Source: Tridacna crocea (lineage: Eukaryota > Mollusca > Bivalvia > Cardiida > Cardiidae). Taken from it: DNA of 64,000 bases. Location: positions 58,844,192 through 58,908,191 of the forward strand of contig OX031061.1 in NCBI GenBank assembly GCA_943736015.1. The letters run 5' to 3'. The translations under genes were made by a program, and so were the position numbers. This document shows, piece by piece, positions 11,994-55,640 of this stretch. The notes beneath the pieces are model-generated. The model worked only from the letters and a program-made list of their open reading frames with translations, made no database searches and was not told the DNA's origin. Numbering within the stretch: position 1 is the first letter of the stretch; every line of letters starts with the position of its first letter.

Positions 11994-11995
11994 AA

Positions 11996-19834: not shown

Positions 19835-20065
19835 TTAACCCATTACCACACAATCCCTACTTTTGACCCCCCTGTGAAAGAAGTCTTTTGAAAACACTGT
19901 GGGAAAAGCAGAAAATGCTGGTAACCAGCATTTTCTCCTTTTCCCACAGTGTTTTCTACCCTTCCCAGAACAAATTTCAATTTTTCAGTCACCTTTATTT
20001 TGTCGTCTGCAAATGCTTTCAATTTGGACCAGTCTAAAATTTTCTCGTGTGGTAAAGAGTCAAGC
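19835..20065 (+). mobile_element. Hairpin MITE, full length
   Basis: Left end TTAACCCATTACCACACAAT, right end TTTCTCGTGTGGTAAAGAGT. The palindrome at 19891-19955 has the change CATTG to CACTG in both arms. It is highly similar to the 11996-12222 copy along its whole length, which suggests recent activity. Confidence 0.9.
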
Positions 20066-21790: not shown

Positions 21791-22145
21791 CTATAAACAC
21801 AGTGCAAGGAAAACGTGGTAAAATCTGCGACAATCCATGTAGAGTGACGTCATCCTATATCGAGTGACGTCATTCAATGAGTGAGTTATTCAATGGAACA
21901 TAATCTTCATCCGCGTTTTTACTCTCAGTTTGAACTTGTTTTCCTTTCATTAAGAATTTGCCATGTTAGAATCGAAATAATCTTCTTTCTATCGTGGTAT
22001 ATCGTTCAATAAACCACGTTGTGAGTTATGAGGCGCAATGAATAACCCACTCGGGCTATCGCCCTCGTGGATTATTTATTGTGCCTCATAACTCACAACT
22101 GTGGTTTATTGAACGATATACCACGATAGAAAGAAAATTATTTCT
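21760..22145. mobile_element. CRE-bearing foldback element, copy 1
   Basis: Starts TTCTAACATGACACGCGACT, then two TGACGTCA sites (21847 and 21867), then a long palindrome at about 21975-22143 whose arms (CTATCGTGGTATATCGTTCA outward, about 75 bp each) enclose CTCGGGCTATCGCCCTCG. It shares its full layout with 32341-32745 and partly with 32803-33040 and 33955-34050. Confidence 0.85.
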
Positions 22146-24594: not shown

Positions 24595-24740
24595 TGCCAT
24601 GCCATTAATATGTAATTTTATCATGGACCATTAACAAAAAAGCCACATGTTCATGCAGCATACAATAACTTTGATATATTTGTATCAAAAAAGGTCTTTT
24701 TCAGCGGGGAATATCATATCAACGAAATTGCTTGTTGTAT
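24595..24740. repeat. Repeat end, pair with 50787-50920
   Basis: Shares TTTGTATCAAAAAAGGTCTT, TTTTTC(A/G)GCGGGG and CAACGAAATTGCTTGTT with 50787-50920. The common 3' limit after GCTTGTT marks the outer end of a mobile repeat. Confidence 0.8.
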
Positions 24741-32340: not shown

Positions 32341-32745
32341 AAACATGTTACATTCTAACATGACACACATGAATTCGGCTGTATAAACACAGTGCAACGA
32401 AAGAGTGGTAAAATCTACGATGTTCTGTGTATGGTGACGTCATTTATACAGAGTGACGTCATGCTGTACAAAGTAAGTTAATCAATGGATTATAATCTGT
32501 ATCCGCGTTTTCACTCTAAGTATGAGATTGTTTTCTTTTGATTGAGGGAGGGTTATACTAGAATCGAACTAATCTTCTTGCTATCGTGGTTTCTTGTTCA
32601 CTAAACCACTTGTGAGTTATGAGGTGCAATGAATAACCCACTCGGGCTATCGCCGTCGTGGATTATTTATTGTGCCTCATAACTTGCAACTGTGGTTTAT
32701 TGAACGATAAACCACGATAGAAAGAAGATTATTTCTTAGGTATAC
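32341..32745. mobile_element. CRE-bearing foldback element, copy 2
   Basis: Layout is as at 21760: ATTCTAACATGACACACATG, two TGACGTCA sites (32434 and 32455), then the long palindrome at 32572-32740 centred on CTCGGGCTATCGCCGTCG. The arms have some mismatches. Confidence 0.85.
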
Positions 32746-33954: not shown

Positions 33955-34050
33955 TGCAATTATTAAACCATGTTGTGAGTTACGAGGCGCAATGAATGTG
34001 CAACTTAGGCTTTCTTCCTCGTGGATTTTTTATTGTGCCTCACTTCCTTT
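33955..34050. mobile_element. CRE-type foldback element, copy 4 (palindrome centre only)
   Basis: AAACCATGTTGTGAGTTACG followed by GAGGCGCAATGAATG and TTATTGTGCCTCAC is the central part of the same palindrome; the arms are eroded and the CRE part is absent. Confidence 0.7.
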
Positions 34051-36539: not shown

Positions 36540-36840
36540 ACTGTATACTGCATAAATTTTGCCTCATAATTTCAGTCACTTCAAATAAATGAAAGTGCGT
36601 TTGCTATAGATTTGTTGCCAAAGGTCCATACTCCAATGCACTGTTCGGAAATATCTAATTGTCAAGAACTGGACGGAGCTGAAAAAAGTCTCCAATTGCA
36701 ATAATACTAAGGACACCATTGGCTTGTATGTAGCAAAAACTCCCTGCAATATCATGTTGATAAAGTTAAACATTCTATAAACAACCATTGAGATTTCATC
36801 TAAACTTTCAGTTTAGAAAAGTTAACGCTCATCACATCCA
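36540..36840 (-). pseudogene. Helitron helicase, Walker B region
   Basis: KLDEISMVVYRMFNFINM contains the DEISMV Walker B motif of PIF1-like helicases. Further on, FEVTEIMRQNL matches the 'ELTEIMRQ' motif. Several substitutions and a frame change have spoiled the part between them, where a GDFFQL motif would be expected. Confidence 0.85.
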
Positions 36841-37130
36841 GCTGTTGCATGTCTAGCGGTTTAGAATTCAAATTTTGATTAGCGGAAATACAGAATAATG
36901 AATGAATAGTGCTGCCTCCAATATTGTGGGCTGCTTTTCCAGTTGGAACACCCAGAACGGCTTTTACAAAATCTGGATTTTCTCCAACTTGTGATGAGTA
37001 AAATCTGGTGACTGCTTCATACAATACAGATGTGAAAAGACTTTTACCAACACCAGCTCCACCACTTAAAAATAAATGCATTTGAGGTTTGTCTGTTTTA
37101 AGAAAATGCAAAACATGGTAGAAGAAGGCC
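36800..37130 (-). pseudogene. Helitron helicase, Walker A region
   Basis: The frame carries HLFLSGGAGVGKSLFTSVLY, a complete Walker A (GGAGVGKS) P-loop. About 35 residues later VLGVPTGKAAHNIGGSTIHS matches the PIF1 motif 'APTGKAAFNI.G.TIHS'. This is the ATP-binding core of a 5'-to-3' SF1B helicase used by Helitrons to unwind the donor strand. Confidence 0.92.
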
Positions 37131-37368
37131 TGCTGACGGTGGTTAGCAACCTTGCAAGTTTCAAATATTTTTCATGTGGCATTCTGAGCCTGTTATGATC
37201 TCATGAATCTATTTGCTTTCGGGTTATACCCATATCGTAAACAAGATCATCGTTGTGCTCAGTTTGATAGGGGTCAACCATACAGTTCACATCTATCAGA
37301 TGACTGTTCTGCATTAATAGCCTCTTGATGCTGACCCTCAGAATTAACATCAACATAAAGTGTATTTA

Positions 37369-37851
37369 CTATATTACAGATAGATTTTCTATAGCATCTG
37401 AAATACCGCTCGCAAAGTTAAAGCTGGATGCATCTTGAATTACAGTATCAAATTTTGCCATGTAACTTGCTTCATATGACTCGTAATCACCCAGTAAAAC
37501 ACTAACATCGTTTATCCATGGAAAAAACAACATTAGTTGAACTCTGTGGTAGTTTTCAGAATCTGAGTCTCTGTTGTACCTCACATAGCGAATAAGTTTG
37601 TCCACTCGCCTTCTATGAATAATAGTTCCATCTTTCATTGTATATTCATGACTTTGAGGTAGGCCTGCTGCATTTCTTGTTTTATTCTCATTCCCCACAC
37701 ACTCTTCATCAGAATCTCTTTGATATTCCTCAGGTAGAACTGTTCTACCTTTTTGATTTTTCTTACTCTTTTTCTGTGGAAAAATAATGTTATATTTTGC
37801 CATAAACCGGCTAAAGAACATGAATTCAGCTGATACGATCTTCTTTGACAA
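37369..37851 (-). pseudogene. Helitron linker between Rep and helicase
   Basis: The frame is open for 160 codons and includes RRRVDKLIRYVRYNRDSDSE and VQLMLFFPWINDVSVLLGDY, which match the conserved Helitron segment 'R..KIIR.V.FN...D...Y.RE.LMLF.PWR.E' between Rep and helicase. It begins near LNSCSLAGLWQN-type text read in the neighbouring frame, so a frame break lies at its upstream edge. Confidence 0.85.
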
Positions 37852-37866
37852 CGCTTGAAATTGTTG

Positions 37867-38106
37867 TCAGATTCTGTGCTGTGATATGGCATTGATTCTA
37901 AAATGTTTTTCAGTTTCAAAAGACATGCTTTTTTCTGCCTCAATACTGCCTTTTCTAGCATGACGGTGACTTTGATAATTAATCAAATCTTTGTTATTGG
38001 CTTGATTTGAGCATGTTACATGTTTATCAATGTATTCACATATTTCTTCGTCCTCATTCTCTCCAAATTTCGGAGCCATTTCTATCCATACTAACATGTG
38101 AATATG
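37867..38106 (-). pseudogene. Helitron Rep domain, C-terminal tail starting at the HUH motif
   Basis: The frame opens with HIHMLVWIEMAPKFGENEDE: the HxH of the rolling-circle Rep (HUH) motif, normally in 'GSPHLHMLVWIE', is right at the upstream edge. It continues ICEYIDKHVTCSN and LINYQSHRHARKG, as in Helitron proteins. The catalytic tyrosines and most of the Rep fold are missing because the preceding 300 or more residues are deleted. Confidence 0.85.
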
Positions 38107-38427
38107 TTAGTATCCTATTACATCAATAGGATGTTATAAAGTATCTGTATTGCCAGTTAAACAAGTGTCAAAGTTCTCTACTTCAGACCAGCCATCAGAA
38201 CTTTCATCATTTTGTTGATCTTTGTCCAAGTTTTCGGATGGTGCAACATTGGCATCGTGTTCTGAATTTTCATGACCAAAGAGTTCACTTTTTCCAGTTA
38301 GCTGCCAGTATTAATCAATTCCTATACTCTCTTGCATGAAAAGTTGACTTTTGGCTAGCAACCAACGTTGTGCATTTAAACATTTGACTGGTCTAATGGC
38401 TTCATGCATAACGGAATGTTTGAACTC
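38107..38427 (-). pseudogene. Helitron pre-Rep region
   Basis: The minus strand reads FKHSVMHEAIRPVKCLNAQR, LLAKSQLFMQESIGI, then an acidic stretch (DKDQQNDESSDGWSEVENFD) and CLTGNTDTL. This matches the Helitron order '.YKH.Y.FE.IRP.KV..A..YL...S.LF...' followed by the acidic 'W.E.....GNTDTL' region. It directly abuts the Rep tail, marking the deletion joint near 38105-38115, where ATCCTATT and AATAGGAT form a small palindrome. Confidence 0.82.
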
Positions 38428-38433
38428 ATTTTT

Positions 38434-38500
38434 ATCCCCCGCCGTAGGCGTAGGGATATAGTTTTAGCGTTGTCCGTCCGTCCGTCCGTCCGTGTTTACG
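38434..38500 (+). repeat. Left end of ATCCCCCGCC repeat with GTCC microsatellite
   Basis: ATCCCCCGCCGTAGGCGTAG leads into (GTCC)n at 38470-38493. This opening is common in repeats I associate with bivalve genomes. Confidence 0.75.
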
Positions 38501-38744
38501 AGGGACCCTATCATGGGTACTATATATGTACAAATTGGGCTTCGTGGGTACTTTTTCATTTTTGGGTATACCCAAAAATTTGAGTATTTAATCTGTGTCC
38601 ATCTTGGTATTCCTGGGTATCTGCCAAAAAGTACCTATGAAAATGACGGACTTCATTTTGTCCATGATTTTGTCCATATCTCGGACACTACCATAAATTT
38701 ATTTTTCAATTCTCGCGCCAAATCCCTTCAAATGCGCATTTGGA

Positions 38745-39286
38745 GTCCTCGGCCTTTTTCAGCAGCGCATGCGCGAGATGGCGAGACGCCCGAACTTCAT
38801 TCGGAACACCTCGGCCAATCTTTCGATCCAGCCTCGGATGTATGCCGACGGAATAATATGTTAAAAAACTTGACATGCATCGCCGGAAGCGGTTATTCGA
38901 CAGATACTCCCCACTACATAGTTCTCGGGATGTTCCAAATGACGTCAACTAGTAACCGTTTCGAATGACAAAAAAACCTGTAGAATGACGGCAAGTCTAA
39001 CTATAGCAGCATAAATGGCTGAATTTAGGACTTGCATTGATTACGCACTTGAAAAATTTGGCTGGATCGAAAGATTGGCCGAGATTTTCCGTATGTTTGC
39101 GCGATAATGATGTCATTGTATTTGTTGTTATGGGGGTGTTGTTATTCCTTCCGGAAGTAGTCCATCGGCATACATCCGAGGCTTGATTCGTAGAATTGAC
39201 CGAGGTGTTCCGAATGGCCCGAACTTTTGATATCCGCCATTTTGTGAACGGGAGCAATATACGCTACGATTGAGGCAGCAAAATAG
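38745..39286 (+). promoter_or_regulatory. Promoter-like GC-rich region with inverted repeats and a 5' UTR exon
   Basis: Contains GCGCATGCGC (NRF1-type palindrome, about 38765) and CCGCCATTTTG (YY1-type site, about 39235), both common in animal core promoters. Two long arms (about 38797-38852 and 39160-39222) are inverted copies of CGGAACACCTCGG...CCTCGGATGTATGCCGA, and a third related piece is at 39055-39090. Just after the YY1-type site comes a donor, AAAATAG|GTAAGC, at 39287, suggesting a short non-coding first exon ending at 39286. No transcript evidence is available. Confidence 0.5.
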
Positions 39287-40715
39287 GTAAGCTGAAAATT
39301 AATGGGTATTTACACATATTAGTTTAAAATTCTGGGCGGGATCCTTTTTTTGGTAGATTGTTCAACCATTCATCCGCAATATCATTTTCAGATAGCTGTA
39401 ACGTCGTATTCATAACACCAAATCAGTTTGAATTGTGTACTCTACTGTACAGCTGCAAAACGGTTTTTGTGCTGAAATTCATTAGGTAAACAGAGTTTTA
39501 AAGCATGCCGATCTCATTCTTGAGATCGATGTACATGCAAAGATTTTTTTCGGGTGAGTGGGTGCATTAGACACCTCACAATAAACAAACTTGGTCAACC
39601 GGACGTTTCAAACTACGTCTATTTTGAACAGATGGTAGAGAGTCATTTTGTGGAAATGGGACTGAAACAGCCAATCAGAAATCGTCTTAAACCCGTTGTA
39701 GAATTTAGATCCCTCCGTGCTCTAGGTATATTTGGTAAGAGAATGAATTAGATACAAAGAAATACAAGCCGCTCTAGTTGGATAGGAATCGAAGTGTCTC
39801 GGGAAAAATCCTGGCCTGGTTGGGTATCGAACCTAGGATCTCGGGATTGGTAGTGTTTTGCAGATCACTAATAAAGGAGCAAGAGGAAACGTATGTAATT
39901 CTTTTCATTTTCTATCTAGGCACTTCAAGGAAAAAGGCGGAACATTGAACGCAGACACTCGTCATTATGAGTCAATGTTCCCCACCCACCTTTTTCCTTT
40001 TCTTCTGTCTTGCCCAAATCTTTTTATTGACCAGAGAAAAAAAAACACAGAAAAATGCAGAATATAGGGGAAACCCTGCAAAATTTTTTTTTAGATTTGG
40101 ACTTAATTTTTTTGCAGCATTTTTGGGGAAGGGGGGGGTTGTCAAGGTTTTCTTTGCAGCATTTTGGGGGAGTTAATGTTCCCCACCAACCTTTTGATTT
40201 TTCTAAGACATTTCGTGTTTCCCACCTAACTAGAGCATACCGTTAGGTTTTTTTGCGACCGGAATAGACCCAGATTAGCCTGTGCATCCTCCCAGTCTGA
40301 TCAAAGTTTACACCGTTTGCCAATAAGTAGGAAAAATGATCGGAGTGCTTCAAAGAAACATTCCAGACAGTTTCAGCAAACAGCTTGGAATGGGTCTATG
40401 CTGTTTGCAAAAGCGTGAAGGTACCTTTTAGTGTGACTTGGCTTATAATTCCTTTTATCAACTTAAAACTCCTCCAAACACAACTCTTACTTACCTCTGG
40501 ACAGACCAGTATTTTCAAAAATAGATGTTGCTTTCAGTTTCTAATGTTGCTGTGTAAATAGGATTCTTCAGATGAAATTAGGAATAGGAACATACACACA
40601 CCAAAAAAACCACATGATATAAAAGAAGATTTATTTACCTACTCATTTTTTTAAGATTGAATAAAAATTTAGATTGTTAAAGTAGTTTAAAGATGTGGTA
40701 TATTATGTCTTTCAG
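39287..40715. other. Probable first intron of the plus-strand gene
   Basis: Lies between a donor at 39287 and an acceptor at 40715. An open stretch at 39554-39734 reads plausibly (for example YFEQMVESHFVEMG) and ends with donor GTAAGA, but its phase does not fit the next exon. At 39780-39850 the minus strand has a tRNA-like B box (AGGTTCGATACCC). Tracts of T, G and A near 40040-40140 are low complexity. Confidence 0.4.
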
Positions 40716-40843
40716 ATCATGGTCTTAGTGCACTGGTCCTCCCTGCCAGGCCTGACAAAGAGTGCAAAATGGCCTGTGCGAGTAGAAGATTGGGCTTCGG
40801 ATGATGTAAAAGTACTAGTCTTCTGCAGATCAGACAATGCATA
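40716..40843 (+). CDS. First coding exon of the inserted gene
   Basis: The acceptor ATTATGTCTTTCAG precedes ATCATGGTC, an ATG (40719) in a strong Kozak context (A at -3, G at +4). The protein starts MVLVHWSSLPGLTKSAKWPV and continues RVEDWASDDVKVLVFCRSD, ending at donor GTAAGTG in phase 2. Other frames are closed. No known domain can be named. The opening vaguely resembles the short beta-rich N-termini of some BEN-type proteins, which is only a resemblance. The next coding exon in the correct phase was not found with confidence. Confidence 0.55.
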
Positions 40844-40997
40844 GTAAGTGTATTTGCTGCATATTCCATCTTTGTTTACACACTTATGTACATGTGCAGG
40901 GCAGTTTCTTTAGTTATAGCTCTTTTATACTTGCTGGAATATTTACAGCAAGCTTTGAAATAAGTATTAATAAATCATTACTAACAACTTGTAATTA

Positions 40998-41212
40998 ACT
41001 GTGTACCACACAAGAAAATATTAGAATGGTCCAAATTGAAAGCATTTGCAAACGAGAAAATAAAATTGAAATTTGTTTCCATCAGGGTAGAAAAGATTGT
41101 GGGAAAAGGAGAGAAAATGCTGGTTACCAGCATTTTCTCCTTTTCCCACAATGTTTTCAAAAGGCCATTTTCTTGAGTTCATTAAGTCTGGACTGTGTGG
41201 TAAAGGATTAAT
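40998..41212 (-). mobile_element. Hairpin MITE inside the inserted gene
   Basis: Ends are GTGTACCACACAAGAAAATA and GACTGTGTGGTAAAGGATTA. The palindrome at 41090-41158 is well preserved (GGGAAAAGGAGAGAAAATGC). It lies in an intron of the plus-strand gene. Confidence 0.9.
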
Positions 41213-41779
41213 AGCTATATGTCCTCTAGTTCACAATGGAGCTGTGCTTGTGCAGTTAATTTGCTATCCACTATGTTTAATCGAAGATTGTGATTAACAA
41301 TAAGTCACAAAACCAAGAATTCAAGTTTAGGCACCAAGTGAGTTCAGGAGCCAACTACAATCGATTCCGGGATTTCTCAACTGTTATCGGAATCGAAAGC
41401 CAAAACCAACTCACTTTCGACTAAAGTCGATCATTGGCCCACCAGTAAGTAATAGATACAAGGGCTTCCTGCGATGAGCAGAGGATTAATTTACAGATCA
41501 GTCCCTGATGATTCAATCGCAATATCTCGGATATAAAGTCACACTTTATCAATTTAATATCAAGTAACATTCCCGATTATAACCGTTAAAATCCGATTCT
41601 AGATAGCACATAGATGTAGTATCAATAATAATACTCACAAAATACAAGAATACTTAACTTCACTTTTATTTGTTTGAATTTTAGAAAATTTGCAAAACAT
41701 AAAGGTGCAGCTTCCATATTGATATGAGACAGTTGGGCGCATTTCTAGGATTTTGAATGAGACATTCTTGGTTTTTATG

Positions 41780-42305
41780 TGCCTATGGCGCATGGTGCAG
41801 GGGTTTCCCGATCATTGTTTTGAGAAGTGTTGGGTGCCTGGGGCATTGATTTATTGGGTACACAGTCCGAAACATACTGGCATCTTTTTGTTGAAAGTCT
41901 GGTTCTCTCTGAGATGTACTGTCCAAAGTATTGTTGGGTGTTTTAAGAAGTGTTGGTCCATTTATTTATTGGGTTCACTGTCCAAACATACATTGGTGGT
42001 TTTCTTGATTGTCTTTTGCACCTTAATAAGATGTATTGTCCAAAATATTGTTAGGAGTTTAAAGAAGTGTTGGACTGTTTATTTGTTGGGTACACAGTCC
42101 AAACATACATGAGTTTTCTTGAATGTCTCGTCCACCTAAATAAGATGTACTGTCCAAAATATTTTTGGGTGTTTTGAGCAATGTTGGGTACTTGGTCCGT
42201 TCATTTATTAGTTGTACAGTCCAAAAGGGTACATGGGTATTTTTCTCAAAGTATTGTTCTCTCTAAATGTACTATCCAAAATATTGTTGGGTGTTTTATA
42301 TATAT
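41780..42305. repeat. Intronic minisatellite, about 115-125-bp unit, four copies
   Basis: Each unit carries AAGTGTTGG, TTTATT(G/A), ACAGTCCAAA, ATACAT and GATGTA(C/T)TGTCCAAA(A/G)TATT, ending TTGGGTG. The units differ at 10-20% of sites, so they are older than the 729-bp duplication that copied three of them. Confidence 0.8.
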
Positions 42306-42650
42306 TACATGATTGTGGCCAAAATTCCTTTTGGTCAACACTATATTCACTAGTTAGTGAAAAATATCATTTCAATTTTACAGCTGCCTTTAAGAAGAAG
42401 AAAATGACTCTGGATGCCTTCCTTGGAGATATAGAATGGGCTTTAATCAGTAAGTAACAGAAAGAAAGATGTGGATGGTGAAACTCGTAATTTTTGTAAA
42501 TGTAAATGAGATGCTTGTAAAACATTACATAAAAACTTAGAAAATCAGTAAACCATTCCATATACATAAATTTAGATTGTTTCAATGCCTAGACTTGTGA
42601 AAATTGAAAGCAGTCAAAGGCATCATAAACGGTTTGTTATATCTATTGTT
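41922..42650 (+). repeat. 729-bp tandem duplication, copy 1
   Basis: TCCAAAGTATTGTTGGG starts the unit at 41922 and again at 42651. The two copies differ at only a few sites over 729 bp, showing a very recent duplication. Each copy includes part of the minisatellite, an intron piece and one whole coding exon. Confidence 0.95.
42384..42449 (+). CDS. Coding exon, 66 nt, phase 1-1 (duplicated copy 1)
   Basis: Acceptor TTTCAATTTTACAG and donor GTAAGT bracket 66 nt encoding AFKKKKMTLDAFLGDIEWAL plus I. Only the phase-1 frame is open. A length divisible by three with equal phases means one copy, both copies or neither could be spliced in without shifting the frame. No domain is recognised; it is a basic start followed by an amphipathic helix-like stretch. 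Confidence 0.65.
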
Positions 42651-43380
42651 TCCAAAGTATTGTTGGGCGTTTTAAGAAGTGTTGGTCCATTTATTTATTG
42701 GGTTCACTGTCCAAACATACATTGGTGGTTTTCTTGATTGTCTTTTGCACCTTAATAAGATGTATTGTCCAAAATATTGTTTGGTGTTTGAAGAAGTGTT
42801 GGACTGTTTATTTGTTGGGTACACAGTCCAAACATACACAAGTTTTCTTGAATGTCTCGTCCACCTAAATAAGATGTACTGTCCAAAATATTTTTGGGTG
42901 TTTCGAGCAATGTTGGGTACTTGGTCCGTTCATTTATTAGTTGTACAGTCCAAAAGGGTACATGGGTATTTTTCTCAAAGTCTTGTTCTCTCTAAATGTA
43001 CTATCCAAAATATTGTAGGGTGTTTTATATATATTACATGATTGTGGCCAAAATTCCTTTTGGTCAACACTATATTCACTAGTTAGTGAAAAATATCATT
43101 TCAATTTTACAGCAGCCTTTAAGAAGAAGAAAATGACTCTGGATGCCTTCCTTGGAGATATAGAATGGGCTTTAATCAGTAAGTAACAGAAAGAAAGATG
43201 TGGATGGTGAAACTCGTGATTTTTGTAAATGTAAATGAGATGCTTGTAAAACATTACATAAAAACTTAGAAAATCAGTAAACCATTCCATATACATAAAT
43301 TTAGATTGTTTCAATGCCTAGACTTGTGAAAAATTGAAAGCAGTCAAAGGCATCATAAACGCTTTGTTATATCTATTGTT
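42651..43380 (+). repeat. 729-bp tandem duplication, copy 2 (730 bp)
   Basis: Second copy. The end ATATCTATTGTT matches the end of copy 1, after which unique sequence TAAATCCACA follows. A one-base indel near 43332 is among the few differences. Confidence 0.95.
43113..43178 (+). CDS. Coding exon, 66 nt, phase 1-1 (duplicated copy 2)
   Basis: Nearly identical to the exon at 42384, with acceptor ...TTTTACAG and donor GTAAGT intact. One difference, CTGCC to CAGCC, is at the third base of the first whole-protein codon and is silent (Ala). Both splice sites survive, so both exons look usable. Confidence 0.65.
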
Positions 43381-43856
43381 TAAATCCACATTGTTCTATT
43401 TTGCTGTTATCACAGTTAACCTGTGTGCGTCTTGATAAAAACCTGAAGCACACTTGTTCAATTTTGATGACAGTCTGGATAGTTAAGGACATTATAATTC
43501 AACAATTATTTTCTCTATACAAGAGAATAAAGTGAAAAACCTTTGTAGTATCTTCACAGTAGAAAGTTTTTGCCAGTAAAATTTCATGGAAAAGAGCGCC
43601 TGGTGTGGTCCAGGGGTGCCTCCATCATTTGTCATTGATTTGATAAGTATAGAATAGGACCACTGTTACCCTGTGCATGTTGTAAGAGGCGACTAAAAAG
43701 GCCCAAACGGATGGAATTTCTATAACTCGAAATTTTAGCAGGTGTGAAGGTGTTGGTGTCATTTCGTGTATTTTTATCTTGATGTAAATGAGAGAGAGAA
43801 CCAAAATCTTCTTTCCTGTCAGGTGCAATATAACCTGTACTGTGTTTGTGCAACTT

Positions 43857-44079
43857 TACCCTTTACCAGGCAATTCCTGGTTTTAATGACCCTGAAATAG
43901 AAGCCTTTTGAAAAAATTGTGGAAAAAGGAAAAAATGCTGGTAATCAGCATTTTCTCTTTTTCCCACAATTTTTTCTACGCACAAACAAATTTCAAATTT
44001 TGAGTTACATTTATTTTGTCAAATGCAAGTGTTTTCAATTTGGACAAGTCTAAAATTTTGTTGCTTGGTAAAGGGTTAA
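43857..44079 (+). mobile_element. Hairpin MITE, full length, intronic
   Basis: Left end ACCCTTTACCAGGCAATTCC, right end TTGCTTGGTAAAGGGTTAAA. Palindrome 43911-43977 has AAAAAATTGTGG and CCACAATTTTTT, a change shared by both arms. Confidence 0.9.
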
Positions 44080-44154
44080 AACAAAAATTCAATTCAATTC
44101 ATGGAGAAGATCAGCTATATATATGTTAATACGATCCCTTATTTTTTTTTACAG

Positions 44155-44245
44155 AAGCATCAGAAGGTATGGTCAACAAGATCAGCCGCAAGAGAGAAAA
44201 ACATCGGAAAGCAGCAAACAAGCCTGTGAAATGTGCCAGAAAGAG
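44155..44245 (+). CDS. Coding exon, basic region
   Basis: Acceptor ATTTTTTTTTACAG at 44154. Entering in phase 1 from the 66-nt exon, it reads KASEGMVNKISRKREKHRKA then ANKPVKCARK, and ends in phase 2 at donor GTATTG. The lysine/arginine-rich content suggests a nuclear localisation or nucleic-acid-binding segment. The phase agrees with the last exon if that uses the acceptor at 45996. Confidence 0.6.
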
Positions 44246-44540
44246 GTATTGTTATACATGTAGTTACTCTGGCACAGCATAATCATACATTACGGAAAAG
44301 TATGTCATTATATCCCATAGGCTATCAATGCTATTGTATTGAAATAGCTCTGCCTATCATATTTTTTGAGTTACTGCCCTTTGTTGATTTTCATACTTAA
44401 TTTTTGTCCGGAGCATAACTCAAAAAGTATTTCGGGTATCATCTTGAAACCTTATATGTGGATAGATCTTATTCAGGGGAAGTGCATTGCAAAAGAACCA
44501 TAACTCTGCCAATTATATTTTTGGAGTTATTGCCCTTTTT

Positions 44541-45973
44541 AGCTCACCTGAGCACGAAGTGCTCATGGTGAGCTTTTGTGATCGCGCAATGTCTGTCGTG
44601 TGTTGTCCGTCGCCCACAATTTCTTTAAACATCTTCTCCTCCTAAACCACGGGGCCAATCTAGATGAAACTTGGCAGGGATGAAACTTGGCAGGGATGTT
44701 CCTTGGGTTAACCTCTACCAAAGTTGTTCAAGAGATTGAATTCCAGCCATAATTCTGGTTGCCATGGCAACCAAAAGGAAAAAAAAATAGAAAATCTTAG
44801 AAAATCTTCTTCTCCGAAACTGGAATGCGCAGAGCTTTGATATTTGGTATGTAGCATCTCCTAGTGGACCTCTACCAAGATTGTTCATATGATGCCCCTG
44901 GGGTCAAAACTGGCCCCGCCCCGGGGGTCACAAGTTTGAAACATTGGAACAAAGAAGGAAAACTTTAAAATTCTTCTTCTCTGAAACTAGAAGGCGCAGA
45001 GCTTTGATATTTGGTATGTAGCATCTCCTAGTGGACCTCTACCAAGATTGTTCATATGATGCCCCTGGGGTCAAAACTGATTCTGCCCCGGGGGTCACAA
45101 GTTTGAAACTTAGGAACAAAGAAGGAAAACTTTAAAATTCTTCTTCTCTGAAACTAGAAAGCGCAGAGCTTTGATATTTGGTATGTAGCATCTCCTAGTG
45201 GACTTCTACCAAGATTGTACATATCATGCCCCTGGGGTCAAAACTGGCCCTGCTCCGGGGGTCACAAGTTTGAAACATAGGAACAAAGGAGTAAAACGTT
45301 AAAATTCTTCTCTCTATGGAACAAGAAGGCGCAGAGCTTTGATATTTAGTATGTAGCATCTCCTAATGGATGTCTACCAAGATTGTTCATATGATGTCCC
45401 TCGGGTCAAAACTGGCCCCCCCGGGGGTCACAAGTTTGTATGATGAGAACAAAGAAGGAAAACTTTAAAATTTTTCTTCTCTGAAACTAGAAGCCGCAGA
45501 GCTTCGATATTTGGTATGTAGCATCTCCTAGTAGACCTTTACTAAGATTGTTCCAATGATGCCCCTGGGGTCAAAACTGCTCTGCCCTGGGGGTAACAAG
45601 TTTGAAAAGTTCAAAATTCTTCTTCTCTGAAACTAGAAGGCGTACAGCTTTGATATATGGTATGTAGCATCTCCTAGTGGACCTCAGCCAAGTTTGTTCA
45701 TATGATGTCCCTGGGGTCAAAACTGGTCCCATATCCGGGGTCACAAGTTTGAATCATAGGAACAAAGAAAGAAAACTTTAAAATTCTTCTTCTCTGAAAC
45801 TAAGTGGTGCAGAGTTTTGATATATGGTATGTAGCATCTCCTGGTGGACCTTTACCAAGTTTTTTCTTAGGATGCCCCTGGGGTCAAAATTGGCCCTGCC
45901 CAGAGGTCACAAGTTTGATTTTACAGCTTGGTACTCAGGTGAGCGATATAGGACCATCATGGTCCTCTTGTTT
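44541..45973. repeat. AGCTCACCTGAG repeat with seven internal units
   Basis: Ends are inverted: AGCTCACCTGAGCACGAAGT on the left and CTCAGGTGAGC at 45934-45944 followed by GGACCATCATGGTCCTCTTG. Inside, a 145-170-bp unit (TTCTCTGAAACTAGAAGGCG, GATATTTGGTATGTAGCATC, GGGGTCAAAACTGG) repeats about seven times. A second copy without the array is at 46991-47680. No protein is encoded. Confidence 0.85.
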
Positions 45974-45996
45974 TCTGTTGCAGCTGCCACAACTAG

Positions 45997-46189
45997 AGTG
46001 ATGCGGGCTGAAGATGAAGTGAAAGAAATCCAGATTTATTTCAAAGAAAACCTGACAACAAGGACTACCCGGGGGATGAAAGACTGCCAGAAAGCCATTG
46101 AGCTAAGTAAAATGAGCAGTGGAACTTTACACAGAAGATCGTGGGAAACCATCAAGAAAAAAGTGTGGAACATGATTAAAAAACTGTAG
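45997..46189 (+). CDS. Last coding exon, small basic helical domain
   Basis: Using the acceptor ending CAACTAG (45996), the phase-2 exit of the previous exon reads straight into VMRAEDEVKEIQIYFKENLT, then MKDCQKAIELSKMSSGTLHR and RSWETIKKKVWNMIKKL, stop at 46189. A stronger-looking acceptor (TTTTCTGTTGCAG, 45983) leaves the phase wrong unless another exon intervenes. The spacing of acidic start, 'YF', 'C', 'RSW' and 'IKKKVWNMI' resembles a small Myb/SANT-like three-helix domain found at the C-terminus of uncharacterised invertebrate proteins. That assignment is from memory and weak. Confidence 0.6.
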
Positions 46190-46990
46190 TTGTTGTTGTT
46201 GTGTTAAACATATACCGTATAAGTACTTTTTTCTGCGGGGTCCAAATTCTGCGGATTTTCAAAATCAAAGTACTGAAAGTACTGACAGACTATTAAATTC
46301 GAAACTAGTAAGTGGCTTTGGTAAATGTAAATCTCTGTTGATTTATACCAAACTGAAGAAATATTGTCATATTTGGTTTTCAGGTCTATTGGTTCATTCT
46401 TGTTATTAAATTCAAGTCGGTTCAATTCAAATGCAGTTCAATCCATTGACTTTACCCTATGCTCTTGACCATTTTCTTCCCTAACACAAGATATATTACA
46501 AAAAACTTCAGTTTGTTAACTTTCCATTTAGAACAGGTTATTTTGTTGAGATGAAATCTGCCTAAAAAGACATCTTTAGATAGAAAGAAATAAGAGGTAA
46601 ATTGTGTTTTGCATGTACACTTGGCCTCTTAGTTATTTCCATAGAATAGTATTTGAAAAGATAAAAGAAATATGATTTTATGTGGCCTATAAACTAAATG
46701 AATACAAAGTTTCATAAAATTTTGTCCGATAGTTAAAGAGATATCAGTCCGCAATGGAAATATACATCAAGCCCCATTTTCTGATGACACGTTACCAAAT
46801 GAAAAAAGAATCTTTATCTGTAGACTGTAATATGGAATACATGAATGATGTTTCACCAATTTTCAACAAGAATTTTAAAAGATGTCTGGACAGAGGAGCA
46901 GAAAGACAGTGTGGAACAAGATCAGGCTACACAGTCTGTACAATCTGCTCTTGGATCCATACTAATTAATAATGGGATAGTTTTTTTTCT
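46190..46990. other. Presumed 3' UTR and downstream DNA
   Basis: Follows the stop codon at 46189. No clear poly(A) signal could be singled out among A/T-rich words. A related palindrome trace (GATCAGGCTACACAGTCTG) occurs near 46920. Confidence 0.4.
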
Positions 46991-47680
46991 AGCTCACCTG
47001 AGCACAACGTGCTCAAGGGGAGTTTTTAGGATCACCCGGCGACCGTCGTGCGACTAATCTTGAAACATCAACGTCTCCTAAACCGCTGGGCGAATTTGGA
47101 CCAAACTTGGCTTGAATGTTCCTTGGGAGGTCCTCTTAAAACATTTTTCACAGAATTTGATTCTGTCAAAAACTCTGGTTGCCATGGCAACCAAATGGAA
47201 TTTTCTAAGAAATTCTTTAAAAATCTTCTTCTCTGAAAATGCTGGCCAGAATTAAAAATAATTTAACAGAGGTCACAGTTTCAGGGCCAATTTCTTGAAA
47301 GTTGGTCAGAATGTTTTACTTGATGACATCTCAGATGACTTTGAAAATCGGTCATGTTGGGTTAGAAACTAGATCAGTAGTTCAAATCTTGAAAAAAATC
47401 CTGTGTATGCTTTAAAAGACACATTTTCTGTCCAATATGTATGATAGGTGGTCAAGCTCTTTGTTTTGATAATATCTACAATAGGAAAATTGGCTATGAT
47501 TGGCTAACAAGTAGGTCACTGAGAGAAATTCTAGAAAAAGTTTGTGTATATGCTAGAGGCCAAATTTTCAGTTAAACAATTATGAAAGCCTAGTTGATTG
47601 TTTGTCAAGAGATTTAAAATGGATCATGTTTGGTCAAAAGACTCAGGTGAGCGACTTAGGGCTATCATGGCCCTCTTGTT
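46991..47680. repeat. AGCTCACCTGAG repeat, second copy
   Basis: Left end AGCTCACCTGAGCACAACGT, right end ACTCAGGTGAGCGACTTAGG and TCATGGCCCTCTTGTT. Its interior (CTCCTAAACCGCTGGGCGAA, TTGCCATGGCAACCAAATGG) is shared with 61785-62060. Confidence 0.85.
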
Positions 47681-48084
47681 TTTGGGTCAAATTACCACCC
47701 TTTATATGACTTTTGGTTCATGGAAATACATTTGTCTCTGCACATTTGGCATATTTCTTCATTTATAACTTTACCTGAATGTATTGCCATTGAAATTATG
47801 TATATTTAGTAACTATTGCGCTATAAGAGCCCTCTGATCTGACTACGTTATTTGCAAATGTAATTGGCGCACTAGAAACTGCTCTATAGTGTTGAAAGAA
47901 TTAAAAACTTGAAAAGAGACTAGTCACTTGTTTCTTTATCAGCTGGTTGTAAAGTTGTGAATTTTTTAAGTAAGAGTACAAAAATGTACATGACATATCT
48001 TTTGAATAAACATTTGTCTTTGTATTGACATTACCACAGTGATTAGTGGAATGAAAGAGATTGAAGCAAAACATTGTTTCCCTT

Positions 48085-48276
48085 TTAAATCTTTACCAAA
48101 CAACAAAATTTTGGACTGGTCCAGATTCAAAGCATTTGCAGACAACAAATTAAATGTTAATCAAAAACTGAAATTGATTTTTGAAGGGTTATCAGCATTT
48201 TTTCCTTTTCCCAAAATGTTTTCAAAGGCTCACTTTCTCAGGGTTGTTAAAAGTCAGGATTGTGTGGTAAAGAGTA
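48085..48276 (-). mobile_element. Hairpin MITE lacking one hairpin arm
   Basis: TCTTTACCAAACAACAAAAT to GATTGTGTGGTAAAGAGTAA are the ends. The left arm is absent and only ATCAGCATTTTTTCCTTTTC remains, as if the palindrome had been half deleted. Confidence 0.8.
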
Positions 48277-49345
48277 AAGGAATTAGGAAATAGCAGACCA
48301 GCAATGGCATCCTCGTGTGGTGCTCTTGTATCGTGTGCAGATGCAAGTATTTTGCAAACAACTCCTTTTTAGCGACACCATTTGAAGTAAAGGGGAGCTA
48401 TCCTACTTATCTCCGTGTCGGCATCAACATTAGTGTCAATACTTTGGTTAAAATTTGCTTGCACATTTTGTATAACTTCATTATGCCTTCTTACGTCCTT
48501 TCCAAACTTTGTACAATTCTTATATATTAAAGACAAAGTTCTCACAGTAAAGTTCCATAACTCTAGTATATATTTTGTTACACTTAGAAATTTATGATAA
48601 AGGGCATATACTTATATAACTTGATGATTTCATAATGGATTAGTCTAGAACTTCACACAATTGTTATTATGTTAAGTTTTCCACAATTTCACAGGCATGT
48701 GAGCTTGTACTTGGTACAAATTTATTCTCTTTGTGGCAGTAAGAATTGAGAGTCAGAATTCATATTATTCAAATAGTCTTACATTCTATTCTTCTGACAG
48801 CTCTTTTTTTTAGTGTATACAAATAAATCTGAATATTTTGTTGGAACTGGCCATCAACCTCAAGTATTTCAAAAATACCCATTAAGTATCCGGTGATGAA
48901 CAAACTACCCATATAGTGGTCATTCTTAAGTACACTATCGGCTAGGATAAAATACCCATCAAAAAAGTAGGTGGTAATGATGGACAATAACTACCCATAA
49001 TGTGGTGATTCGTTGGTACGTCCGTCCGTGTGTCCGTCCCGGCAAATATCTCCAATACCATTGGACGGAATTTCGTGAAACTTCATACACATGTACAATG
49101 ACCCATTCTCCCGAGACACTTTTTTTTTTTTTGATTCGATGCAAAATGGCCGACTGAGAGCGATTTTAAGTTTCACTTAAGTAACACTTAAGTACACTTG
49201 ATGTTTGGAGTCTTCTCTTCAAAACTATACAAAGTTTTTACATTGAACTTGTCACATCTGTCAACCTCCATTAGGAAATGCAGGAAAAAAAGTTTCACCT
49301 ACGTTGACCTTGCAATACCACAGTTATTTGCCTTTGTTTTTGTAA
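48277..49345. other. No gene recognised; repeat fragments
   Basis: Contains a TCCGTCCGTGTGTCCGTCC-type piece at 49018-49040, like those near 16100 and 38470. No exon is supported. Confidence 0.5.
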
Positions 49346-49349
49346 TAAG

Positions 49350-50200
49350 GTGTCATGGAAAAAGGGGGTTTCATGTTATATTTCATTCAATTTCTTGTGA
49401 AGGCAACTCCTTCCACATTTCTTGAAGGAATTGAATGGAATTTTGACAGAATATTTTTTGTCATGAGACCTATTGCATATTGTCAACATTTTGCGATTTG
49501 TAGCTGCGTCATGAAAAAAGGGGGCTTCATGTTTTATTTCATTTTATTTCTTCTGAATGCAACTCGTCCCATATTTCTTGACAGAATTGAAATGAATTTT
49601 CACAGATTTTTTCTCATCATTTGACCTATCGCATATTCTCAAGGTTTTACTATTTGTAGCTGCGTCATGAAAAAAGGGGGCTTCATGTTTTATATCATTT
49701 TATATCTTGTGAATGCAACTCGTCCCATATTTCTTGACAGAAATGAATAGAATTTTCACAGAATGTTTCTTATCATCTGACCTATCACATATTCTCAACG
49801 TTTGGACAGTTTGTGGCTGCGTCATGAAAAAAGGGAGCTTCATATTTTGTTTCATTCTATTTCTTGTGAAGGCAACTCCTCCCACATTTGGCAGATTTGA
49901 ATGGAATTTTTACATTATCGTGTGACCTAACACAATGCCTCCCACATTTCTTGGCAGATTTGGATGGAATTTTCACATGATCATGTGACCTACGGCATAT
50001 TGTCAAGGTTTTGGGATTTGTAGCAGCATCATGGAATAAGGGGGCTTCATATTATAATTCAATTTTTCACCTGTATCTCTTTAATTACTGGACATATCTC
50101 AACAGATTTGGATGAGATTTTCACAGATCATGTAACCCAGCACATGTTGTCAGGGTTTTGCAATCTATCACTGTATCATGGAAAAAGGGGACTTCATGTC
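49350..50200. repeat. Diverged tandem array, about 155-bp unit, about six copies
   Basis: The phrase GTCATGAAAAAAGGGGGCTT recurs near 49352, 49508, 49665, 49821, 50028 and 50175 in slightly different forms, with shared TTTTATTTCATTTTAT, CAACTCGTCCCATATTTCTT and GACCTATCGCATATT in between. Open frames in it follow the periodicity and are not genes. Confidence 0.85.
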
Positions 50201-50563
50201 AAATTTAATTTTTTATCAGTGAATCTCCAACTTTTGCACATTATTTTCATAGAACTTCATACTTTTATTGGTTGATCAAAGCCAGTGACCAATGAGTCAA
50301 TTGTGCATTCGTCTCTCCATGCATCTGTCTGTTCGTAAACCTTTTAGATCACAAGTAATACCATATATCCATTCAGCTACCCAGGCAGGTGCTACAAATT
50401 TCAACACTTTAGTCTCTAGCTACCTGCTTGAAATGGCAGCTTATATTGTGAGAAGGATATCTTCTAAAGTCCTTGACAAAAATTGATGAAACTTCATGCA
50501 TGTTTTCTTTTCCATTAGATAGTCTGTTGATACATTTTTTTCCACCACATATATGAAATCCTG

Positions 50564-50680
50564 AAATGAAAACAAATAAAAGAAATATACATAAAACCCC
50601 CTCTTCCCTGACATGTAATTATATATGACATGTCATGGAAAAGGGGTTTTTATGTATATTTCCTTTGTTTGTTTTCATTT
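50564..50680. mobile_element. Hairpin element with about 52-bp arms
   Basis: AAATGAAAACAAATAAAAGA ... ATACATAAAACCCC pairs with GGGGTTTTTATGTATATTTC ... GTTTTCATTT; the centre is TGACATGTAATTATATATGA. Mismatches are few. It is one of several unrelated stem-forming repeats in the window. Confidence 0.75.
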
Positions 50681-50786
50681 TATGAAATGCCAAGTTCTGC
50701 AAAAAGGGTCCTGAATGTATAATCCTGTAATGGACCTCTTTTATATTTTTTTTATGTAATGAAATCCTGTGCCATGGAACAAGGGA

Positions 50787-50920
50787 GCTTAATGTATAAT
50801 TTCATCATGGACCAATAACAGAAACGCCACATGTACATGCAAAACACAATACCTCTTATACGTTTGTATCAAAAAAGGTCTTTTTCGGCGGGGGATGTCA
50901 TTTCAACGAAATTGCTTGTT
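50787..50920. repeat. Right end of the 12.5-kb insertion, shared with 24595-24740
   Basis: TTCATCATGGACCAATAACA, TTTGTATCAAAAAAGGTCTT, CGGCGGGGGAT and CAACGAAATTGCTTGTT. The last base of similarity with the 24.6-kb copy coincides with the point where Helitron protein text begins (50921). Confidence 0.85.
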
Positions 50921-51450
50921 CCTTTTAAACTTCACTTGTACTGTTTCAATATCACTGAATGTTCTTGGAAGAACAGTCATGGTAGAACTTGCATCTGATG
51001 GGACATTGACAATATTGCCCCGTAAGCTTCTCTGCCCCTCCCCCCTTTTTTTTCAAAAAAAAAAAAAAAAAAAAAATGCATGAAAGGAATTCTGGGACTT
51101 ATAATCTTTCTTCTAATGCAATCAAATCAGGTTCTTTATGCTTTTTTTCTGAAAGCCTATCCCATTAGCAAGATACAAAATGGGAATGTTTCCTGTCTTA
51201 AATGAATGTCTATATGTGCTGCATATCCACTCATACTTTCCAATACACTTAATACCTTTAATGCAAACATTAAGATTTTCAGCATGTGCATACTGCGTGG
51301 GAATATACTTAAAAACAGACTCTCTAAAGCAGGTCTGCATACAAGATGTGCAAACAAACTCGACACCTTTGGATGTTTCCTGTTTAAAATGCTGTATTAC
51401 ACGATCTACTTCTCGAGATTTCACAGGCATTTGACAATGACAATGACAAT
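50921..51450 (-). pseudogene. Helitron N-terminal cysteine-rich region
   Basis: The minus strand reads EFVCTSCMQTCF, then WICSTYRHSFKTGNIPILYL, NGIGF, and, in a shifted frame, a text matching 'LEERLISPRIPFMQI'. After an A/T homopolymer it continues GNIVNVPSDASSTMTVLPRT and FSDIETVQVKFKRN. This is the conserved block that precedes the Rep domain in many animal Helitrons. One cysteine of the second CxxC pair is replaced by tyrosine. The text ends exactly at the insertion border and its continuation is at 38427. Confidence 0.87.
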
Positions 51451-51489
51451 GTTTTATCATAAGTAATAAGGCCACCGGCCCATAATACA

Positions 51490-52490
51490 AAATCTACATG
51501 TGGAAGCGAACATACACTTAGATGAGCTACGTTTTGACATTTAAGAAAAAAAATAACACTTTTTAACATAGTTCAACAAAATATAGTTGTTAGGACTAAA
51601 GAAGAAGAATTTTAAAAAGTACAATGAGAAAAGGAGAAAAGGCAACTACTAAATATTTTGTCCACATACAGCAATATAATCTACCCTATCCCAAAAAATC
51701 CCTTCCTATCAATGTTCTATCAATGTATTTAAAAAAAAAAAACTGGGTTAACTCTTAATTACAATGACTAGATCTATATCTAAAATTATCAATGCCATCG
51801 GCCGATAAGACAGGAAAATACATTTAAAAAAAAAATAATTGACATAGCAGACAAGTTACGTCCCTTCTATTACCATGTTTACCATTAATCTGATAAAAAA
51901 ATATAGTTAATCTTACAAACTAATAATTTGTGCACTAATTTTGCTATTGTATAGGTACTCATTGGAGAAATATTTGTCCCTACCGGACAGTGTAGATTTA
52001 AGATCAGACTGCAAAATCCTGATCCATACTGCCCGCAAGGGCAGCACTTAGCAATAAAGGGGTTAAAATAAGGTACTGTACTAACACTCAGTATATACAT
52101 TGGAAAATGACCGCTCATAGGAACGTCAAAATGAGATATATAGGATTTGACATGAGTTGACTTTTGAGATAAAACTTCATCAAACGAGTCTAAGGAAAAT
52201 ATTATCAAGCGATTCAAAATTTCATCCTAAATGCCACAAAATATCAGGTTCTTTTTATCACATAATGATATTTCACCAAATATAAATCAAAAAATGAAAA
52301 AAATGAAGAAAAAATAATCTATAGATGTACCCGCATTTATATGCGTAAAAGCCATTCACTTCTATGAAAAACGTTCAAAATGACGTCAAAATTGACGTCA
52401 CTCAAATGTGATACTACACATGTTTAAGGTAGGAATATTGGTAATGGGTATTTTACACAGAAAACAAGGGAGGTTATGTAATAAAACATT
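51490..52490. other. No gene recognised
   Basis: Presumably Helitron-internal or inserted DNA between the N-terminal block and the LINE. It contains a trace of the 'CAGACTGCAC' family (51990-52030) and several A tracts. An open frame at 51885-52217 (minus) has no support. Confidence 0.45.
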
Positions 52491-53025: not shown

Positions 53026-53623
53026 TCATATTTCTGTAAATGTTTCACATTCAAAAAATACATGATGCTCACATTCTATAACTTTAACCTCATAATTTCT
53101 GTAACAACAAAGACAAATTCTTTTATCTCGGTGAACATTAGTATGTCTACCTGTTTCAATTCCAAATTTGTGGTTCGAACATCGAAATTTTGAAAGCGAT
53201 ATTCTCTGTTTCATTGGAATATCCGGTTGTAAGTATTTTTTCTACATTTAATAAAGATTTATAATATTTATAATGATAACAACGGCTGGATGTATTGATG
53301 GATTCATGCCAATTTTGATTTGCACAATCTATGAGTCGTTGTTTGAAGGCCTTTAGGAAGTTAATCGTATCTCCAATTTCTTGAATTATCCAGACTATTC
53401 CAAAACCGTACATGTATAGCAAATTTTTAACATTAGAAGCCCAGGTTCTGCGTCCCGCGTTATCTAAATTTTTAAGCAATATATAACAATTTCGAGGGTA
53501 TCTATGGTTTGACATTTGTAAGAGTTTACACCAATATTTAACACAAGATAAATGATAATCAATGTAGATCGGATAACGACCACATTCACCTAAAGCTAAT
53601 GTGTTGTTTGTTGAACTATTCAA
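53026..53623 (-). pseudogene. LINE ORF2 C-terminus with cysteine/histidine motif
   Basis: Two overlapping frames give LALGECGRYPIYIDYHLSCV with KYWCKLL, and then SLSKFRCSNHKFGIETGRHT followed by RICLCC and ECEHHVFFECETF. The latter is the CxxC...H...C knuckle that closes many LINE ORF2 proteins. The 3' UTR is short and ends near 52930. Confidence 0.88.
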
Positions 53624-54168
53624 AACAAGGTATTTTTTTTTTTACAAAATTCAAAATGAACTGATTCTAAGACAGGTGAGTATGTATGTCCCCATATCTG
53701 GGCCCCATAGCACAAAATTGGTTTAACCATGGAGTCAAACAATTTAAATAGGTCAGTACAACTAAAAAAACCGAACGATTTCTGATATCTATTGATAGAA
53801 AAAATTGCTTTTCTGGCCTGTGATGCTAATTTTTCTTGGGCTGGAGTCCATAATAACATTGGGGTAAAAAGGATGCCCGTATATTTATAACAAGAAGTTA
53901 CCGATACCTGCTTATTTCCGAAATACCACTTTTCATTTAACCGTAACGGTCCTCCATTTCCAAATACAACAATTTCAGTTTTATCTAAATTGACTTCCAT
54001 TCCCGTATCAAAACAAAACTCCTGTATAATATTCAATTGTTTTTGCAAATTAACAACAGTATCTGAACAATTAGCAATATCATCGGCAAACATTAAACAA
54101 ATAACATCCGGTATATTTTCATTTATATAAATTCCATTTTTGCAATCATTCCGTAATGCAGTACACAA
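53620..54168 (-). pseudogene. LINE reverse transcriptase, FADD motif and thumb
   Basis: VICLMFADDIANCSDTVVNL holds the catalytic FADD box (motif C). MEVNLDKTEIVVFGNGG is motif D, and CYKYTGILFTPMLLWT is motif E ('YLG'). Then KPILCYGAQIWG matches the conserved post-RT segment 'P...YG.E.W'. It ends at a poly-A tract that probably shifted the frame. Clade is uncertain (CR1/L2/jockey-like groups share these motifs). Confidence 0.92.
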
Positions 54169-54300
54169 TTGGTTGATAAATAAATTAAAAATTATACTGC
54201 TACTTTTGTCTCCTTGTCTGGTGACAGTGTTACACTAAAACAAATCTGTCAAACCATCTTTTGTTTTTATACATGATGACAAATTTTTGTACATGGATAA

Positions 54301-54849
54301 TCATACTTTTAGAAAGTTGTCGTAAATACCATGGCCTCTAAGACATTGGAATAATTTTAAATGATTAATTTTATCAAAGGCTTTACGAAACTCTACATAT
54401 GAAAAATAGAAACGGCCTCCTTGCTTTGATAAATATTTTTGTATTATAGCTTGTAACGAAAACAAGTTCTCTACGGTAGAATAATTTCGTCTAAATCCGA
54501 CCTGTGCTTCATCAGTTATATTGTTATCCTCCGCCCATTTACATAATCTTGTACTGATAATACCTGAACATATTTTATACATGGATGTAGTGATGGATAT
54601 ACCACGATAATTTGCCGAATCATTAATATTTCCTGATTTATATACTGGACAAACAATAGACTGTGACCAAGAAATAGGGAAATTTTCAGTAGACATTACT
54701 TTATTGAAAAGTTTGTATAAAATCGGGGTAATTTCGTGCAGTGTTGCCTTATAAAATTCAGATGGTAATCCGTCAATACCTACGCTTTTACCATTTGTTA
54801 AACTGGTTATAGCTTTTTCAGTTTCAGTCATTTGTTTTAATAAATTCAT
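54301..54849 (-). pseudogene. LINE reverse transcriptase, N-terminal half
   Basis: Open for 182 codons. Motifs in order: AITSLTNGKSVGIDGLPSEF (RT0/1, normally 'LK.GKS.G.DGL..E.'), SIVCPVYKSGNINDSANYRG and ISI (motif 2), AQVGFRRNYSTVENLFSLQA (motif 2a), and SYVEFRKAFDKINH (motif A, normally F.D..KAFD). The first aspartate of motif A is replaced by glutamate (VEFRKAFD), which would harm catalysis. Downstream, in another frame, is the RQGDKSS motif B. Confidence 0.92.
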
Positions 54850-54869
54850 GTTTTGTGTTTTCTTAATTT

Positions 54870-55640
54870 CAGCCTGTCAACAGTATAGGATATATCTTTT
54901 TTCCTCCTTCTTTTCTGTATTCTAGGTGATTCATTATTGAAATTTTCCATGTCTGCTTGTGTTTCATATCTATCAATTGCATTCTGACAACTGATTTTTC
55001 AAGTTAAAAATCCCAACAGAGTTTATTTCATGGATCACATTGTCTAAAGAAACGCTTGAAATTGAAGTGCACAACAATCGAAGAAAGTCACATAGCTGTG
55101 ATTGTGTTTCAAAGACTGATAAAATATACTTTCCATTTGGAGACAAGATACCATTTACATCTCGACTATGAGAATCGAAAAGATTATATGAGCCATTATC
55201 AAATGTAACAGCAACCGAAGCCCCATGAAATACTATGATACAGACATTACTACACCTAAACACTGAGTGAAGGGCTCTTTCTAAAGAGAGACCTTTTTCA
55301 TCAGTATAATTTACACTCATACATCCAGTGAAACTTCCTGTTAGTTGTTGTTTGAAATTGAAATAATTTAAAGTAACATATGCTGGCAAATCAGCATACA
55401 ACAACAACTCATTAATGTTCGAATGTGACTGTTTTTCAAGAACTTTCCTATATAACACATCGCCTATGTGTAAAACAGAATCAAAATCATTTGTGTTCAG
55501 ATTTGACAAAGAAAAACAAAAACTAAGCAGTTAGCCATACATTGCTTGCCTCTTGACAGCACAGGAAAAACCGCATGGCCTTGACAGAAACTTGCGTGAC
55601 ATATCAGTGTATTTATCATTTTGAACGAACTGTTTTCCAG
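54870..55640 (-). pseudogene. UL36/peptidase C76-like cysteine protease domain of the Helitron
   Basis: The minus strand carries HASFCQGHAVFPVL, then RGKQCMANCL around 55530-55555 (the catalytic-cysteine motif 'GKQC.ANS'), and about 120 residues later YNLFDSHSRDVNG (55155-55190) with the Asp-x-His pair of the C76 deubiquitinase fold. The domain is named after the herpesvirus large tegument protein, but it is also found at the N-terminus of some animal Helitron proteins, which fits its place here. It is broken, with about one or two interruptions. A lysine/arginine-rich linker (RIQKRRRKKDISYTVD) follows before the LINE. Confidence 0.78.

Follow-up and report, generated by a model that had tools for sequence, protein, structure and literature searches.

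How did a 12.5-kb block of DNA with gene-like features come to interrupt the reading frame of a Helitron-type transposable element in the bivalve Tridacna crocea? We addressed this question in a stretch of 64,000 nucleotides from contig OX031061.1 (GenBank assembly GCA_943736015.1, forward-strand positions 58,844,192 to 58,908,191), hereafter called the window and numbered from its first letter. We conclude that the block, which measures 12,487 bp, is probably an exceptionally long HINE (a non-autonomous Helentron) that took up host-type DNA and moved with it as one piece. Four observations speak for this reading: the motifs at the two ends of the block, its insertion at a run of T, an empty site that is open in frame, and HINE-like elements nested within it. 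The mechanism and the class of element are already known; what would be unusual is the length, together with the possibility that a whole gene is carried.

The best bounds of the unit are 38434–50920 on the plus strand, defined by its end motifs together with the in-frame empty site, and the T run at 38429–38433 can be assigned to either side. The original prediction had proposed that the unit splits a minus-strand Helitron frame. This interruption is borne out by the frame of the right flank, which runs to 50921, and by its reopening on the left flank. The restart had been predicted at 38427; on the left flank the T run already lies in the open frame. The left cut was set at 38433, and the exact first base within the run is ambiguous. 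When 38433 was joined to 50921 computationally, the flanks met across five T and the frame remained open through the joint. Among run lengths of two to eight T tried at this position, two, five and eight preserve the frame, and the joined sequence contains five. The target is T-rich, with TTTTT on the left of the unit and a final TT on its right, and the in-frame joined site with its five T fits insertion without target duplication.

A translation of 84 residues across the joint matches the Pfam family DUF6570 in a single stretch (profile positions 49–123, 36.4 bits), and the score rises to 45.2 bits when the translation takes in further upstream letters of the window and is allowed to shift frame within a poly(A) run. 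The right-flank half alone reaches 26.5 bits. Nine control continuations of this half, four of them shuffled and five taken from random positions in the window, scored 24.2–28.9 bits, all below the joined sequence. A protein search with the joined 84 residues in a database built from genomes and metagenomes gave no candidate.

Both ends of the unit carry features that have been described for HINEs. The 5' subterminal inverted repeat (subTIR), ATCCCCCGCCG, lies at 38434–38444 (plus strand), and the 3' subterminal repeat, CGGCGGGGGAT, at 50886–50896 (plus strand) is its exact reverse complement over 11 of 11 bp; complementary subTIRs of HINEs measure 11–15 bp. The inverse motifs that had been predicted at the two edges are thus present, and they form a unique pair: at up to one mismatch, no other match to either occurs in the window. 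In 100 shuffled sequences, the 11-bp end repeat was matched 0.05 times on average and never twice, and among 20,000 random pairs of 43- and 51-bp borders, 24 shared an exact complementary word of at least 11 bp (longest, 13 bp). On the left, an inverted partner at 38447–38457 (plus strand) forms a hairpin with the 5' repeat; folded as DNA, the segment 38433–38458 reaches −7.9 kcal/mol (z = −3.57), and 1 of 200 shuffles folds as well. It is followed by a GTCC microsatellite array at 38472–38493 (plus strand). The right end comprises the 3' repeat, a weak palindrome, ATTTCAACGAAAT, with a 5-bp stem and a 3-nt loop (50900–50912, plus strand), and a terminal CTTGTT (50915–50920, plus strand). Satellite-like tandem repeats of 156 bp (49352–49914, plus strand) lie close to the right end and distant from the left. 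Just within the right end, a 117-bp stretch at 50564–50680 is self-complementary (88.1%).

The right end recurs elsewhere. As had been noted before, the last part of the unit resembles a repeat near 24.6 kb: the final 132 bp match 24605–24736 (plus strand) with 85.6% identity and stop at the same base (alignment score 176, compared with at most 27 in 30 shuffles). A weaker copy lies at 46540–46642 on the minus strand (score 90; shuffles, at most 30). These matches establish the right end of the unit as a repeat. The left-end repeat does not recur in the window at up to one mismatch, and only right ends are found again there, at 24.6 and 46.5 kb.

To identify related elements, both strands were scanned for a hairpin ahead of CTTGT combined with a matching upstream repeat. 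Three of the resulting 15 candidates were taken, one being the outer unit itself; the other two mark right ends of nested HINE-like elements. Element A (44541–45972, plus strand) spans 1,432 bp and contains 167-bp tandem repeats; element B (46991–47680, plus strand) spans 690 bp. For element B, the scan supplied the right end, which it paired with the left end of A rather than with B's own; the left end at 46991 was located by the repeat AGCTCACCTGAGC, which has two matches in the window, and this end folds into a hairpin with a z-score of −3.24. The outer unit and both nested elements share CTTGTT ends and T-rich left flanks, and CTTGTT also terminates the repeat at 24.6 kb. The other 12 candidates, based on words of 9–12 bases, are probably chance matches or matches to miniature inverted-repeat transposable elements (MITEs). 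A MITE-like repeat of about 200–230 bp, with a long central palindrome and ends such as GGTAAAGGGTTAA, recurs in the window at 11993–12220, 19836–20063, 40995–41210, 43855–44080 and 48080–48283, so that three of its five copies fall within the unit.

Among the closest described counterparts are the Cg_HINE elements of the Pacific oyster (PMC7492417), and the oyster-like features of the unit are compatible with a bivalve origin. In the passages that describe them, the parts of an oyster element follow each other as subTIR, inverted partner, GTCC microsatellite, tandem repeats, subTIR and palindrome. The T. crocea unit shares with these elements the left subTIR with its partner, a GTCC-type microsatellite, satellite-like tandem repeats, a right subTIR with a candidate palindrome, a T-rich target and the absence of a target duplication (PMC7492417). 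It differs in its length of 12.5 kb, in the exon-like, promoter-like and nested-element DNA that it holds, and in the weakness of its palindrome; its subTIR, ATCCCCCGCCG, is not found among those passages (PMC7492417). More generally, HINEs are described as inserting at T-rich sites and leaving the target unmodified (PMC4067079). Canonical Helitron signals, by contrast, are missing: the unit begins with ATCCCC and ends with CTTGTT in a T run, and lacks 5' TC, 3' CTAG and the A–T target. Those three signals mark the Helitrons reported from the Pacific oyster, which are rolling-circle elements, as the unit probably is (PMC7992393). According to the portions of that survey used here, the oyster Helitrons are on average 1,092 bp long, 257 of 751 carry subterminal inverted repeats, and 17 (2%) contain gene fragments (PMC7992393).

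Gene capture by this class of elements has precedents on a smaller scale. Capture of gene fragments by Helentrons and HINEs has been described, and bypass of an end or composite transposition has been proposed to account for it; the examples given in the parts of that paper considered here are histone-gene fragments of 244 bp and 87 bp in Culex and, in Phytophthora, a fragment of 1,688 bp from a single gene (PMC4067079). The insertion of filler DNA during repair is described as another route (PMC6544945). The ends of the T. crocea unit are of the same class as those of these Helentrons and HINEs, whereas its putative cargo would comprise about 10 kb with introns rather than fragments (PMC4067079). 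In the portions of the cited literature considered, HINEs contain short satellite-like arrays and the cargo of Helentrons consists of gene fragments. Among the matches listed in searches of the literature on gene capture by Helentrons and Helitrons and on molluscs and bivalves, no title concerned a HINE of such size with a multi-exon cargo. When the 10-base terminal motif was searched in paper texts, the titles among the matches listed concerned other subjects. The terminal motifs gave no match in viral contigs and none in genome contigs, collections that cover viruses, bacteria and archaea and are therefore little informative here, and searches of solved structures returned nothing that we judged relevant.

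What does the unit carry? At its left, a promoter-like, CpG-rich stretch is predicted at 38750–39290 (plus strand), with observed-to-expected CpG ratios of 1.21 in the 500-bp interval that starts at 38501 and 1.16 in that from 39001, and a donor-like site follows 39286 (score 9.6 on the simple consensus scale by which all splice sites were graded). A 59-bp inverted repeat at 38798–39216 brackets part of this stretch (score 42, compared with at most 15 in 200 shuffles). Further downstream, four exon-like pieces follow on the plus strand: piece 1 at 40716–40843, with an ATG at 40719 and 41 open codons (acceptor 4.9, donor 5.9); piece 2 at 42384–42449 (acceptor 6.2, donor 5.0), which has a second copy at 43113–43178 within a 731-bp tandem duplication of 98.2% identity; piece 3 at 44155–44245 (acceptor 10.7, donor 4.2); and a terminal piece at 45984–46189, which closes with a stop codon (acceptor 10.6 at 45984). 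An AATAAA at 48005–48010 (plus strand) is a candidate poly(A) signal. From sequence features alone, a promoter, an exon of the 5' untranslated region and a poly(A) site within the unit are suggested.

These pieces do not confirm the gene with coding exons that the original prediction had proposed. Among the sites that bound them, two exceed a score of 7, namely the acceptors of piece 3 (44155) and of the terminal piece (45984), and the remainder lie between 4.2 and 6.2. Pieces 2 and 3 share a single open frame when joined, but joining piece 1 to piece 2 creates a stop codon, and so does joining piece 3 to the last piece through the acceptor at 45984; this second joint is open only from 45997, where the acceptor scores −0.1. 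A linking exon between pieces 1 and 2 was sought in 40900–42380, and no candidate of 25–250 bases with both splice scores above 3 was found. The product of the spliced pieces had no Pfam match and no homologue, the single candidate being unscored, in a database of genomes and metagenomes that may hold few animals. The 3' end of element A lies 11 bases upstream of the strong acceptor at 45984, within its pyrimidine tract (45950–45984), and element A may now supply part of this splice site. Two further indications were set aside. An AlphaFold model of the last exon-like piece shows three helices and is too weak for use (mean predicted local distance difference test score 63.5), and CpG depletion, considered as a sign of a gene body, is unspecific because values are equally low across much of 26–32 and 34–37 kb. 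Overall, the case for a working gene inside the unit is weak, and any captured host gene is putative.

How the unit may have formed can be outlined on the basis of its ends. A Helentron Rep/helicase would nick at the HINE 5' end (38434), unwind the DNA and copy one strand; it would miss the usual nearby 3' end and stop only on reaching the matching one at 50920, some 12.5 kb downstream, and the host-type DNA between the two ends of the unit would thereby travel as a single piece. The single strand would then join the T run in the frame of the older Helitron-type element, without duplicating the target. The movement of the entire block in a single event is inferred, as are the enzyme responsible and the route of capture. 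As alternatives to missed termination, two neighbouring HINEs could have acted jointly, or the DNA could have been acquired as filler during break repair within one HINE. Any of these routes would fit a HINE left end with a matching right end 12.5 kb away, and none is preferred. The original prediction of a single large mobile unit, possibly a composite with host DNA, is supported by the HINE-type ends and the in-frame empty site; the gene within it is not confirmed.

Several results weigh against the transport of the whole block as a long HINE. The left-flank half has no DUF6570 match, either alone or with more of its own frame, and a tenth control, in which the flank was read straight into the insert, scored 32.1 bits, only 4.3 bits below the joined sequence, which weakens the test of the joint. 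When the right end is folded as DNA, the 3' palindrome does not appear (z = +0.71, with an equal or better fold in 149 of 200 shuffles). A bypassed 3' end was sought in 38600–40000 and none was found (score 26, with shuffles reaching 27). The sole hint of a second left end is another GTCC stretch at about 49.02 kb, which matches the left end through its microsatellite only (score 32; shuffles, at most 27), and the sequence beyond it has no match to the left end. Most splice sites being weak, our confidence is slightly lowered in this reading as well as in the transport of a whole gene.

The main rival is ordinary nesting, in which a HINE of about 2–3 kb entered the Helitron frame and was later enlarged in place by insertions and duplications, the host-type DNA having arrived separately by repair or segmental duplication. 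In keeping with this history, the unit contains a tandem duplication as well as two HINE-like elements and three copies of the MITE-like repeat. The same holds for the right 2 kb, where a microsatellite, the 156-bp repeats and the right end together resemble a HINE body; the likeness of the left-end body to this right body lies within the shuffle range (146 of 200 as good). However, the nested elements and the MITE-like repeats, together with a single copy of the duplicated segment, account for 3,499 of the 12,487 bp, and separate arrival of the exon-like DNA needs an extra event, whose footprint was not seen, although no dedicated search was made for it. We regard enlargement in place as unlikely. 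We give lower credence to the view that the two Helitron pieces derive from different copies, or that the borders are assembly joins, in which case host DNA would simply lie between repeats that are unrelated. The DUF6570 match of the joined flanks is indeed modest and depends on 40 residues, and reading into the insert gives 32.1 bits against 36.4. Yet both borders coincide with HINE-type ends, the flanks meet in frame at the T run, and two independent breaks in one codon would be a coincidence; this explanation is very unlikely.

Two further possibilities concern the contents of the unit. It had also been proposed that the block is a large element of an undescribed kind with a spliced gene of its own, which would then be needed for its movement. 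The exon-like pieces do lie within the unit, on the strand read from its left end, but the ends fit a known class of non-autonomous Helentrons and the search for an intact gene found none; not all of the pieces share one open frame, most splice scores are low, and their product has neither a Pfam match nor a homologue. We consider this proposal the least probable of all those discussed here and have not retained it. Conversely, a HINE might have moved an entire host transcription unit, with promoter, introns, exons and poly(A) signal (about 38.75–48.0 kb), as one 12.5-kb piece. This stronger form of the favoured reading, a long HINE with host-type DNA, is unlikely.

The flanking element itself is taken as a decayed Helitron-type element and is probably a Helentron. 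Its N-terminal side lies at 50921–51493 (minus strand), where the DUF6570 match, above the Pfam cut-off, on its own spans 50921–51052. The continuation at 36800–38433 (minus strand) contains the end of DUF6570 across the joint, a HIHM stretch, which we take to be Rep-like and which has no Pfam match, and a match to a PIF1-like helicase that is under the cut-off (E = 5.9e-05). An endonuclease fused at the C-terminus is a mark of Helentrons; a stretch at 35.7–35.9 kb, presumably endonuclease-like when one stop is read as E, had no endonuclease match. Frames of a reverse transcriptase of the non-long-terminal-repeat type are nested in the element at 53159–54876 (minus strand), with an RVT_1 match for 54304–54876 (E = 6e-12) and no family match for the frame at 53159–53641. 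Beyond them, the frame at 54976–55530 (minus strand) has a match to the protease-like family Herpes_teg_N that is under the cut-off of 25 bits (E = 4.2e-04, 20.5 bits). Elsewhere in the window, a 79-bp repeat occurs in three direct copies (22010–22088, 32601–32679 and 33964–34042) with 100, 90 and 85% identity to the reference copy.

With its HINE-type ends 12.5 kb apart, its exon-like DNA and its readable empty site, this unit would suit tests of how Helentrons take up host DNA. It would also bear on the question of whether Helentrons copy whole genes in animals: if transport of the entire transcription unit were true, non-autonomous Helentrons would copy whole genes, and not just fragments, in this genome.

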